35,927 nucleotides of DNA from an uncultured Microcaldota archaeon (GTDB taxonomy: Archaea > Micrarchaeota > Micrarchaeia > CAILAH01): positions 1 through 35,927 of the forward strand of contig CAILAH010000017.1 in NCBI GenBank assembly GCA_903832205.1, written 5' to 3'. The notes under the pieces are model-generated. The model saw only the letters and a program-made list of their open reading frames with translations. It did no database searches and was not told where the DNA came from. Shown here in pieces: positions 6,203-31,358 of the stretch; positions within the stretch are counted from its first letter, which is position 1, and the number at the start of each line of letters is the position of its first letter. A program made the position numbers and the translations under genes.

Positions 6203-7660
6203 TTATCCCTTTACCACTCCGTGGGGGATCATGCGCGTTACCGCTTTTGCGAGCTTTGCGCCCACCACGGAATCTATCACGTCATCAATATCCTTGTATG
6301 CGCCAGGCGCCTCCTCGGAAATCACTTCGCTTTCTGCGGAGCGTATGTAAATGCCCTTCTGATTAAGCAGGTCCTTTACCATTGAGACCGGGTATGTGCG
6401 AATTGCCTCGTGCCTGCTCATGACCCTCCCTGCACCGTGGCACACTGAATGGAATGATTCTGCTGAGTCTGCAGTGCCCACGAGCACGTAGGATGCGGTG
6501 CCCATGCTTCCCGGGATCATCACCGGCTGGCCCACATCACGGTATGATGCGGGGACTTCCGGGCGGCCTGCTGGCATTGAGCGTGTCGCGCCTTTCCTGT
6601 GCACCCACACGAATCCCTTCTGGCCGTTTTCAAGAACGTGCTCCTCGCGCTTGCCGATGTTGTGGCACACGTCGTAAAGAACATCCATCCCCAAATCCTC
6701 AGGGTCCTGCTTAAGTATGATGCCAACTGATTCGCGCACCCAGTGCGTGAGCAGCTGCCTGTTGACGAATGCGAAGTTCACCGCGCAGTTCATTGCCTTA
6801 ATGTAATCGCTGCCTTCGGTTGAATCCACGTGCGCGTAAACGAGCTCGCGGTCGGCCAAGGTGATGTTGTGCTTGTTCACGTATGAATTGAATGTGCGTA
6901 TGTAATCCGAAGCGACCTGGTGCCCGAGCCCGCGCGAGCCGGTGTGTATCATGATAACGAACTGGCCGGGAAAGAGGCCGAACTTCTTCGCAACCTCCTC
7001 ATCAAGCACCTGGTTGACTTCCTGCAATTCAATGAAATGGTTTCCCGAGCCGATGGTGCCGAGCTGCGGCTTGCCCCGCGAAATCGCCATGTCGCTGACC
7101 TTTGACGGGTCCGCATCCTTCATGCGGCCGTTCTCCTCAATGTAATGCAGATCGCGGTCCCAGCCGTACCCCTCGCGCACCGCCCACTCAACGCCCTCAG
7201 TAAGCACCTTCTTCAGAGTTGTTGGGTCGAGACGAACTTTTCCTTTTGAGCCAACGCCCGAAGGGCAGTTCTCATAAATCGAGTTGATGAGAGGATGCAG
7301 ATGTTGCACCACATCCTTGTACATGAGATTAGTCTTGAGCAGGCGGACGCCGCAATTTATGTCATAGCCAATCCCTCCGGGCGAGATGATGCCCTCCTCA
7401 TCGCGGAATGCGGCAACACCGCCGATTGGGAACCCGTAGCCCTCGTGGCCGTCGGGCATAACATATGCGGAGCGCACGATGCCCGGAAGGGACGCGACGT
7501 TGCAAATCTGCCTGAGCGTCCTGTCACCCTTCATCTTGTCGAGCATTTTCTCGGATGCAAACACCTGAGCAGGCACATTCATATTGCCCGTCTGCGGAAT
7601 CTGCCAAACATAATTGCTGATTTTGTTGAACGTTATTGTGGGTGTTTCTTCCTCTGTCAT
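6203..7660 (-). CDS. rtcB: RNA-splicing ligase RtcB
   Basis: A 485-residue RtcB, the GTP- and Mn-dependent ligase that joins 2',3'-cyclic-phosphate and 5'-OH RNA ends, including tRNA halves after intron excision. Visible motifs in order: MPDGHEGYGFPIGGVAAF (about 68-85), GGIGYDINCGVRL (95-107, with metal ligand Cys103), GSGNHFIELQEV, HTGSRGLGH, CHNIGKREEH, HRKGATRSMPAG, and the active-site segment FHSVCHGAGRVMSR containing the guanylylated His. No intein is present. The frame is open to 7885, but that part overlaps the divergent gene; the ATG at 7660 (MTEEETPTITFN) has a TATA box about 20 bases upstream and gives the usual length. It is upstream of trmI on the same strand. Confidence 0.97.
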   Translation of the reverse strand: MTEEETPTITFNKISNYVWQIPQTGNMNVPAQVFASEKMLDKMKGDRTLRQICNVASLPGIVRSAYVMPDGHEGYGFPIGGVAAFRDEEGIISPGGIGYDINCGVRLLKTNLMYKDVVQHLHPLINSIYENCPSGVGSKGKVRLDPTTLKKVLTEGVEWAVREGYGWDRDLHYIEENGRMKDADPSKVSDMAISRGKPQLGTIGSGNHFIELQEVNQVLDEEVAKKFGLFPGQFVIMIHTGSRGLGHQVASDYIRTFNSYVNKHNITLADRELVYAHVDSTEGSDYIKAMNCAVNFAFVNRQLLTHWVRESVGIILKQDPEDLGMDVLYDVCHNIGKREEHVLENGQKGFVWVHRKGATRSMPAGRPEVPASYRDVGQPVMIPGSMGTASYVLVGTADSAESFHSVCHGAGRVMSRHEAIRTYPVSMVKDLLNQKGIYIRSAESEVISEEAPGAYKDIDDVIDSVVGAKLAKAVTRMIPHGVVKG

Positions 7661-7675
7661 TGGAGTTCCTTTTGG

Positions 7676-7692
7676 GTATAAAGGTATATTAA
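7676..7692. promoter_or_regulatory. Overlapping divergent TATA boxes for rtcB and the PrsW-like gene
   Basis: GTATAAAGG (7676-7684; CCTTTATAC on the minus strand) lies 16-24 bases before the rtcB ATG. GTATATTAA (about 7684-7692) lies 23-31 bases before the plus-strand ATG at 7715. The two elements abut, so the divergent promoters may compete. Confidence 0.5.
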
Positions 7693-7714
7693 GATGGCGG
7701 TTTAATGCTATTTT

Positions 7715-8758
7715 ATGGCCTATCTCGAGCTTGCGGTGTGGCTTTTTGCGGCAACCGCAATTATGATGGTGCTTGCCCTTTACACGGCACTGCACAAAAA
7801 GGGATGGCTGGCAATTGTGGACGTGTTCATGCCGGAGATGAGAGGGCTCACGCCAAGCTCTGAGGTCGCTGCAATCATCGTCCACCCTCTATTCTGGATT
7901 ACATGCGTTGGAATCGTAACATTCTTCACAATCTCGCTCATGTTTACAATAGACCTGACAAAGGTGGGCTATGAATGGCTCGCGTTCTCTTTTTCACTGG
8001 TCATATTCTTCGCATTGTTCGACCCCATGGTGATATGGTTCAGCGAGGGAAAGTACAGGGAGCCGCTGAGGTTCGTGTTCGGCGCATTAAGCTACGGGAT
8101 GTTGTGCGCGTTGGTTGCATTCTTCTTCAACTCCATGGCCAGCCTCTTGCTTAACGAGGAATTCGGCCCCAAGATGGGCGTGCTCATGCTGATAGCCGCA
8201 GCACCGGTGATTGAGGAAGTGCTCAAGATGTTCGGAGTGATTCTCCTTTCAGGGCACAAGAACTTCAGGGGACCGCTTGATGGGATACTTATCGGGTTTT
8301 CAGTAGGTGCAGGGTTCGCAATGGTGGAGAACATATTCTACATATCAACAAAGATACCGGAGAACTCGATTGAGCTGCTCCTGTTCCGCGCGTTATATAA
8401 TACACTGGCGCACGGCGCGTTCACCGCAATAGGAGGCGCGGTGCTCGGCAAGATAAAGCAGGATTTCAAGAAGCCGAACCTGCTGCTGCTTACGGTCCCG
8501 GTGCTGGTTGCCGCGCTCACGCATACCGCATTCAATGTATTGGCAATCGTGGATATAGTGGGAGTCAATTCGCTCGTGCTCAGTTACTACATATTCAGCC
8601 CCGCAATGGTTGTGGCACTGCTCATCATCGTTGCAATACTCATTTTCTACAACTGGAGTGACAGGAAAAAGAGGATGAACAAGGAGCTTGCGGAGCTGGG
8701 CGTGGATGCGAATTTTGACAAGGAATTTGCAAAGCTGAAGAAGAAGGCGAACAAATAA
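7715..8758 (+). CDS. PrsW-like intramembrane metalloprotease
   Basis: A 347-residue membrane protein with about eight predicted helices. The middle has the PrsW-family signature: APVIEEVLKMFGV (about 168-180, with the Glu pair), DGILIGFSVGAGFAMVENIF (about 188-207), HGAFTAIGGAVLG and HTAFNVL. These Glu and His residues are the expected metal and catalytic ligands. PrsW proteases cleave membrane-bound anti-sigma factors in Bacillus; archaeal members exist but their substrates are not established, and there is no anti-sigma target here. The C-terminus (about 310-347) is a charged cytoplasmic tail. The start is a probable leaderless ATG, with a TATA box overlapping the divergent rtcB promoter. 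Confidence 0.85.
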   Translation: MAYLELAVWLFAATAIMMVLALYTALHKKGWLAIVDVFMPEMRGLTPSSEVAAIIVHPLFWITCVGIVTFFTISLMFTIDLTKVGYEWLAFSFSLVIFFALFDPMVIWFSEGKYREPLRFVFGALSYGMLCALVAFFFNSMASLLLNEEFGPKMGVLMLIAAAPVIEEVLKMFGVILLSGHKNFRGPLDGILIGFSVGAGFAMVENIFYISTKIPENSIELLLFRALYNTLAHGAFTAIGGAVLGKIKQDFKKPNLLLLTVPVLVAALTHTAFNVLAIVDIVGVNSLVLSYYIFSPAMVVALLIIVAILIFYNWSDRKKRMNKELAELGVDANFDKEFAKLKKKANK

Positions 8759-16166: not shown

Positions 16167-16292
16167 GCCGGGGTGGCAGAATCCGGTAATGCGCTAGACT
16201 CGAAATCTAGTGTCCGCAAGGACTTAGGAGTTCAAATCTGCATCGCAAGCGATGTCTATTCGCTTCGGGCAGCGAAAATCTCCTCTCCGGCG
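16167..16292 (+). tRNA. tRNA-Ser(CGA) with a T-loop intron
   Basis: A complete class II tRNA folds once a 42-base insert is removed. The acceptor is GCCGGGG with CTCCGGC (16285-16291), discriminator G at 16292, and no encoded CCA. The anticodon stem is CTAGA/TCTAG with loop CTCGAAA and anticodon CGA at 16201-16203. A long variable arm has GTCC/GGAC around GCAA. The T stem is AGGAG (16226-16230) with CTCCT (16280-16284). The T-loop is interrupted after TTCAAA (16236) and resumes with T (16279), which restores the canonical 7-base loop TTCAAAT. The mature tRNA would be 84 bases. Serine identity rests on the anticodon and the long variable arm. Confidence 0.9.
16237..16278 (+). other. tRNA-Ser intron at position 59/60 (T-loop)
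   Basis: The 42-base insert fits a bulge-helix-bulge fold. The outer helix is the T stem AGGAG/CTCCT. The 3-base bulge AAT (16277-16279) is at the 3' junction. The central helix pairs TTCA with CGAA (three pairs plus one A-C mismatch). A second 3-base bulge AAT (16235-16237) is at the 5' junction. The inner helix is CTGC (16238-16241) with GCAG. Cutting at the same place in both AAT bulges gives the mature loop. The interior also has CATCGC/GCGATG arms. Confidence 0.8.
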
Positions 16293-31178: not shown

Positions 31179-31184
31179 CTTCAC

Positions 31185-31214
31185 GGGCCGTATAAACCAA
31201 AGGTTTATAGGCCC
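31185..31214. repeat. 13-bp bulged hairpin containing the tRNA-Lys TATA box
   Basis: GGGCC (31185-31189) and TATAAACC (31191-31198) pair with GGTTTATA (31202-31209) and GGCCC (31210-31214), with one bulged G and an AAA loop. GTTTATAG in the 3' arm lies 26-33 bases before the mature tRNA-Lys 5' end and is probably its TATA box. Confidence 0.6.
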
Positions 31215-31215
31215 C

Positions 31216-31233
31216 GCAAATCAGAAGATTTGC
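31216..31233. repeat. 7-bp hairpin with GCAAATC/GATTTGC arms
   Basis: GCAAATC (31216-31222) pairs with GATTTGC (31227-31233) around AGAA. It ends two bases before tRNA-Lys. The arms resemble those of the hairpin at 16097-16121 upstream of tRNA-Ser. Confidence 0.5.
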
Positions 31234-31235
31234 AC

Positions 31236-31358
31236 GGGCCCGTAGCTCAGCTTGGCTAGAGCGGCGGACTTTTAATCCGAAGGTCGCGGGTTCAAAAGCA
31301 CTTTCTTTGCGCGGCAAAGAACCTGCACTAAGAAAGCCTGAAAATCCCGTCGGGCCCG
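31236..31358 (+). tRNA. tRNA-Lys(UUU) with a T-loop intron
   Basis: A complete tRNA folds when a 48-base insert is removed. The acceptor is GGGCCCG with CGGGCCC (31351-31357), discriminator G at 31358, no encoded CCA. The D stem is GCTC/GAGC. The anticodon stem is GCGGA/TCCGA with a G-A mismatch at 27-43, loop CTTTTAA, anticodon TTT at 31271-31273. The T stem is GCGGG (31286-31290) with CCCGT (31346-31350). The T-loop is interrupted after TTCAAA (31296) and resumes with T (31345), restoring TTCAAAT. The mature tRNA would be 75 bases. A T-run (31362-31366) shortly after the 3' end may be the terminator. Confidence 0.92.
31297..31344 (+). other. tRNA-Lys intron at position 59/60 (T-loop)
   Basis: The 48-base insert fits a bulge-helix-bulge fold. 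The outer helix is the T stem. The 3-base bulge AAT (31343-31345) is at the 3' junction. A perfect 4-bp central helix pairs TTCA with TGAA. A 3-base bulge AAA (31295-31297) is at the 5' junction. The inner stem CTTTCTT/AAGAAAG is preceded by a small internal loop. An alternative inner hairpin TTCTTTGC/GCAAAGAA is also possible. Confidence 0.82.

Follow-up and report, generated by a model that had tools for sequence, protein, structure and literature searches.

This locus raises the question of how a tRNA-Lys(UUU) gene with 48 additional bases in its T loop could still yield a normal tRNA, and where those bases came from. It bears on the origin and movement of archaeal tRNA introns. The gene lies in a stretch of 35,927 nt (the window) from a Micrarchaeota genome (G000), an 82% complete MAG of 1.11 Mb in 70 contigs. 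The features of the window on which the argument depends are the following.

31236-31358, forward strand: pre-tRNA-Lys(UUU), T loop opened by a 48-nt intron
31236-31296, forward strand: 5′ exon, tRNA positions 1-59 (RF00005 match, solver, orthologs in relatives)
31297-31344, forward strand: intron of 48 nt at 59/60 (solver, register test, shuffles)
31345-31358, forward strand: 3′ exon, comprising T60, the 3′ strand of the T stem, the acceptor 3′ strand CGGGCCC and discriminator G
31286-31290 and 31346-31350, forward strand: T stem, GCGGG/CCCGT
31291-31294, forward strand: 5′ strand of the central helix, TTCA, exonic
31339-31342, forward strand: 3′ strand of the central helix, TGAA, intronic
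31295-31297, forward strand: 5′ bulge AAA, predicted cut behind its second base
31343-31345, forward strand: 3′ bulge AAT, predicted cut behind its second base
31298-31336, forward strand: core common to other introns, an imperfect hairpin (31298-31326) with the tail ACTAAGAAAG (31327-31336)
16167-16292, forward strand: pre-tRNA-Ser(CGA) with a 42-nt intron (16237-16278) at 59/60, central helix 3/4
6203-7885, reverse strand: RtcB RNA ligase, conserved from residue 76 onward (about 7660 to 6203)

An unbiased search for a cloverleaf combined with a bulge-helix-bulge (BHB) motif, run over all intron placements, returned a sole solution for the Lys gene, with the intron at 31297-31344, the anticodon UUU and a product of 75 nt. 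Removal of the intron leaves a normal cloverleaf of that length, with TTCAAAT in the T loop and all exon stems intact. In BHB splicing, cleavage falls behind the second base of each 3-nt bulge. The motif found here consists of a central helix with 4/4 pairs, an outer helix of 5 bp, an inner helix of 1 bp and two 3-nt bulges. Because both junctions lie within runs of A, four intron registers lead to the same mature RNA, but only 59/60 combines the full central helix with the 5-bp outer helix, scoring 9 against 4 for the next register. A first-pass annotation, made from the letters alone, had proposed this 48-base intron, the T stem split by it, and a TTCA/TGAA helix flanked by two 3-base bulges that restore TTCAAAT; the solver and the register test uphold the coordinates, and both T-stem strands and all four pairs are confirmed, as are the two bulges, which read AAA and AAT. 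It was also right that a tRNA-Ser is opened at the same T-loop site, the Ser(CGA) intron being real and at 59/60. Its expectation of a strong stem in the intron interior was borne out in part: folded alone, the core forms a hairpin of −12.1 kcal/mol (z −2.79), but this competes with the minimum-energy fold of the whole pre-tRNA, in which CTTTCTT pairs with AAGAAAG, and the inner helix beside the bulges amounts to 1 bp. A strict BHB has outer and inner helices of at least 2 bp each; with an inner helix of 1 bp the Lys(UUU) motif is not a strict BHB and is filed as the relaxed form, which strict-specificity endonucleases might not cleave.

The pairing of the central helix is unlikely to be fortuitous. 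With the exons fixed, 2.2% of 4000 dinucleotide shuffles of the Lys intron matched it, and across 19 introns at 59/60 from G000 and its relatives (a set that omits Trp, Leu-UAA and Arg-UCU of G000 and the relatives' two introns at 56/57) the Fisher p is 1.4e-11, a value that is optimistic because several of the 19 share ancestry. The helix also changes along with the exon: TTCA/TGAA is replaced by TTCG/CGAA in Glu and by TTCA/TGGA in two relatives (G004 and G014). Standard tools miss or shorten intron-bearing tRNA genes of this kind, as they do in the window, where ARAGORN detected no tRNA anywhere and Rfam RF00005 matched Lys(UUU) at 34.9 bits with an early end (31236-31294) and a distorted 3′ part.

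Such introns are widespread in this genome. Among 35 tRNA genes (32 solved or partly solved, plus Arg(UCU), Leu(UAA) and Trp(CCA) added later), 30 carry one or more introns, and a T-loop intron at 59/60 is present in 13. These 13 are Ser(CGA), Lys(UUU), Thr(GGU), Gly(GCC), Gly(CCC), Val(GAC), Glu(UUC), Met(CAU), Ile(GAU), Tyr(GUA), Arg(UCU), Leu(UAA, by eye) and Trp(CCA). The central helix is complete in eight of the first ten and 3/4 in the other two; it is 3/4 in Arg(UCU) and 1/4 in Trp(CCA), so that the Trp intron may not be spliced by the same route. Five intron-containing genes were not cleanly solved (Val-UAC, Thr-CGU, Thr-UGU, Ser-GGA and a gene on contig C59 that ARAGORN calls His); for these the anticodon was assigned by eye or by ARAGORN. 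The counts do not include a Gly(CCC) copy at the edge of contig C20, as it overlaps with the copy on C68. T-loop pattern counts over 41 genomes, which resembled the reversed control in many of them, served as leads only. For comparison, archaeal tRNA genes carry 0.21 introns on average and those of Thermoproteales 0.84, according to figures excerpted from PMC8450103. In tRNA-Arg(CCU) (contig C13, L021, minus strand), an extra 26-nt intron sits near position 9, between the acceptor and D stems.

The Lys(UUU) genes of relatives were compared through the best 30 loci, in G000 and related genomes, among matches to the Lys 5′ exon. A T-loop intron was found in 12 of these loci. Seventeen of the 30 are Lys(UUU) genes, of which 12 are uninterrupted (74 or 75 nt) and five interrupted, at 59/60 in G000, G004 and G014 and at 56/57 in G001 and G003. 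The T-loop introns of Lys(UUU) in the close relatives G001, G003 and G004 are unrelated in sequence, and a further Lys(UUU), that of G100, holds a 173-nt T-loop intron composed of several hairpin copies (central helix 3/4). Taken together, these introns make it seem that the T-loop site of Lys(UUU) has been refilled repeatedly.

BLAST of the 61-nt 5′ exon against G000 matched four places, namely Lys(UUU) itself, Arg(UCU), Lys(CUU) and Arg(CCU), so this search, which the first-pass annotation had proposed, brought up no second Lys(UUU) in the 82% of the genome that is represented; with 18% missing, the absence falls short of proof. AAA codons are in use, with 118 AAA against 361 AAG in 16 open reading frames of the window. 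The annotation's argument that UUU is indispensable, and that the gene must be spliced to be useful, stands, and we infer that tRNA-Lys(UUU) is apparently essential. It could still be supposed that the gene is a pseudogene, a dead copy broken by a repeat, with functional Lys(UUU) supplied from the unassembled part of the genome. The completeness of 81.8% leaves room for this, and the interrupting sequence does belong to a repeat with relatives outside RNA genes. However, the exon stems are all intact, the BHB geometry beats chance across the intron set, and the orthologs in three close relatives are interrupted in the T loop too, by different sequences, which is not expected of a dead gene. 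Furthermore, introns occur in 30 of the 35 tRNA genes found, and splicing must therefore be routine in G000. We consider a dead copy very improbable.

If the gene is spliced, the position of excision could in principle be 56/57 rather than 59/60, since the product would be identical and 56/57, with a 4/4 central helix, is the site in the close relatives G001 and G003. In Lys(UUU) of G000, however, the 56/57 register has neither an outer nor an inner helix (score 4 versus 9), and excision there is very unlikely.

Candidate enzymes for each splicing step are encoded in G000, as both EndA and RtcB are present. EndA, encoded on contig C13, is 390 aa long, carries PF02778 at residues 11-71 and two PF01974 stretches, and aligns over residues 13-390 with the EndA of ARMAN-2 (PDB 4fz2) at E 1e-120. 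In the available portion of PMC6379350, ARMAN-2 EndA is described as an epsilon2 enzyme of 390 aa with broad specificity, and sections of PMC12397907 assign Y160 and K161 to the ASL loop and Y236, H251 and K282 to catalysis, and name R275 as well; all six residues are kept in the alignment. The G000 protein has the alphaN-alpha-betaC arrangement in a single chain of about 390 aa, the catalytic Tyr-His-Lys and the ASL Tyr-Lys that define epsilon2, and is, judging from its sequence, a broad-specificity epsilon2 endonuclease of the ARMAN-2 type. Broad specificity matters because the inner helix of the Lys motif is only 1 bp. The EndA query met 72 loci among named genomes, mostly titled Micrarchaeota or Micrarchaeum and some Marsarchaeota, Mancarchaeum or only archaeon, the best match being isolate SKW51 (86%). 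Contig C3 encodes another protein with a weak PF01974 match, 161 aa long. The RtcB of the window matches PF01139 at E 1.9e-169 and PDB 7lfq and 1uc2 at E of about 1e-180. Directly downstream of endA lies a hairpin (L079:1676-1742, contig C13) that resembles the 37/38 introns of Gly and Arg tRNAs.

We therefore hold with high confidence that the 48 bases are a real, recently copied archaeal BHB intron at 59/60, predicted to be spliced by EndA and RtcB. The T stem, together with T-loop TTCA paired to TGAA at the intron end, would expose the two 3-nt bulges; the epsilon2 EndA would cut once in each; and RtcB would join the exons into the normal 75-nt tRNA-Lys(UUU). The core itself would have been copied recently among tRNA genes of G000, among T loops as well as across T and anticodon loops. 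Cutting and ligation, like the direction and mechanism of core copying, are what we infer.

Copying is indicated by the intron cores. All 39 nt of the Lys core are identical in the T-loop intron of Gly(CCC), and over 39 nt the core shows 95% identity with the intron that Gly(UCC) has at 37/38, in the anticodon loop. Mutual identity is 94-98% among the introns that Gly(GCC), Val(GAC) and Glu(UUC) carry in their T loops. With cores nearly identical in several tRNA genes, the introns seem to have moved recently between genes, and this recurrence in other tRNAs and at another tRNA position is more interesting than the intron alone. The sequence upstream of Lys(UUU) (31181-31235, forward strand) likewise closely matches the flank before Arg(UCU) (contig C31, before 38896), its last 33 bases being identical at 32. 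A common upstream flank of about 55 bases looks like a sign of duplication or gene conversion, which would mean that the tRNA genes themselves exchange sequence in G000. A second repeat of about 60-100 nt, with GTGTGGTCTACACC and a G-rich/C-rich hairpin, occurs on contigs C10, C57, C63, C38 and others (L017, L023, L078), within several tRNA introns (Tyr T loop, Thr UGU, Ser UGA) as well as in intergenic positions, in either orientation; it matches no Rfam family at the cut-off.

The distribution of the hairpin was followed with a model, R1, built from an alignment (A3) of seven equal-length cores, as two earlier alignments (A1, A2) had shifted the stem registers and were discarded. This choice excludes the Lys type, so R1 was built without the Lys intron. 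In R1 the paired fraction of cells is 97.4%, and at two pairs both partners change. The percentage paired, the double-change cells and the covariation score were each reached by 2 of 500 shuffles, while the count of pairs with a double change (397/500) and the pair types (492/500) fail to beat them. R1 matches the Lys intron at 17.9 bits (E 0.02 in 230 kb), which is weak alone; together with the 39/39 and 95% core identities, it places the intron in the hairpin family.

Across the class, R1 matches at E ≤ 0.01 occur in 37 of 117 genomes. In 12 genomes the best match reaches E ≤ 1e-6; four of these supplied training sequences and eight none. The E-values are rough, and matches below about 30 bits, which are to pyrimidine-rich sequence, may have arisen by chance. 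Of the matching places beyond the first set, 20 + 18 were inspected by eye. Sixteen matches in G000 fall into 13 places, comprising nine tRNA introns, one 16S gene and three places outside RNA genes or antisense (contigs C36, C20 and C38). Hairpin copies are also found inside the 23S genes of G002 and G069 and the 16S gene of G107. Tandem arrays consist of 48-nt units in a tRNA-Leu T loop (G004 C2:5682-5769, L223) and of 57-nt units behind a tRNA-Leu (G036 C11:7909-8006, L224), with further arrays at G086:C12:4716-4850 (L251) and at G001:C13:12232-12355 (L252), the latter in a tRNA intron or adjoining a tRNA gene. At G000:C36:8990-9076 (L259) a hairpin stands where, judged by eye, a thiolase-like gene begins, between two similar stretches that look as if they were a target duplication. 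At G000:C44:5982-6021 (L257) a copy interrupts 16S, after which the contig enters a coding sequence of MazG-type appearance (by eye); this junction at the hairpin may be a mis-join at the repeat.

This distribution suggests a mobile repeat, tolerated at sites where splicing takes it out, although the Y1 transposase does not fit as its mover, the weaker matches may have arisen by chance and slippage could account for tandem growth. In its fullest form the proposal, which we rate at about an even chance, is that of a Micrarchaeota introner-like element: a hairpin of about 30 nt with an ACYA-RAAA-like tail, spreading through tRNA T and anticodon loops, 16S and 23S, also by tandem amplification; the Lys(UUU) intron would count among its recent copies. 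Such an element would survive in tRNA and rRNA genes because the epsilon2 EndA and RtcB excise it from the RNA. One candidate for the mover was a Y1 transposase of the IS200/IS605 type acting on the hairpin, as non-autonomous elements of that type are short hairpins, like the repeats described here. However, PF01797 is found in two of 14 chosen genomes with R1 matches versus one of 14 without, and in none of the contigs of G000; being uncorrelated with R1 copies across these 14 + 14 genomes, the Y1 transposase was rejected, and we give it very little chance of having driven the copying.

That the insert is instead a self-splicing or homing-type intron has a negligible probability, given its length of just 48 nt and the lack of any Rfam intron family match in the window at E ≤ 10, even though group I introns occur in Micrarchaeota rRNA genes, as stated in a part of PMC6125680. 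A group I intron or other known RNA family inside the Lys intron was rejected at that threshold, at which the Rfam matches in the window are two tRNAs and two sub-threshold hits elsewhere.

How does this BHB intron, with its hairpin core, compare with known systems? The introner elements of eukaryotic spliceosomal introns are a repeat family that apparently creates introns in many genes. The hairpin likewise appears as a repeat family making introns in many genes, whereas the introns of G000 are of the protein-cut BHB type in stable RNA genes and their mobility is only putative. Compared with EndA of Ca. Micrarchaeum acidiphilum ARMAN-2 (PDB 4fz2, 9w2k), the G000 enzyme has the same 390 aa, unit order, catalytic triad and ASL Tyr-Lys; it is a divergent ortholog and no new type. 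T-arm introns and broad epsilon2 cleavage are already known, as extracts of PMC12397907 make clear.

Archaeal introns at 59/60 are already known as well, and the non-canonical ones treated in portions of PMC4090602 share with G000 the position, a BHB-type splice site and the occurrence of several introns per gene; G000 differs in its Micrarchaeota host with an epsilon2 EndA, in the T-loop introns of 13 of 35 genes and in a core that is a hairpin repeat. Transposition of tRNA introns has been recorded in Thermoproteales (passages of PMC4033280 and PMC4090602), by a mechanism that the consulted pages of the latter describe as unknown. Near-identical introns in different tRNAs and positions, as in Thermoproteales, are also met in G000, but in another phylum and with related copies in 16S and 23S, in tandem arrays, beside protein genes and in antisense. 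In the literature searched, to which Fujishima's key papers did not belong, no description of T-loop intron copying or of the hairpin in Micrarchaeota was found. We accordingly rate the Lys intron itself as known in kind, and the hairpin-built, multi-site family as a novel variation on that kind. The findings fit the co-evolution of broad-specificity endonucleases with intron variety proposed in the sections seen of PMC12397907. Furthermore, a second phylum with still-identical copies, unrelated orthologous introns at 56/57 or 59/60, and related hairpins in rRNA genes and outside RNA genes makes intron gain traceable stepwise.
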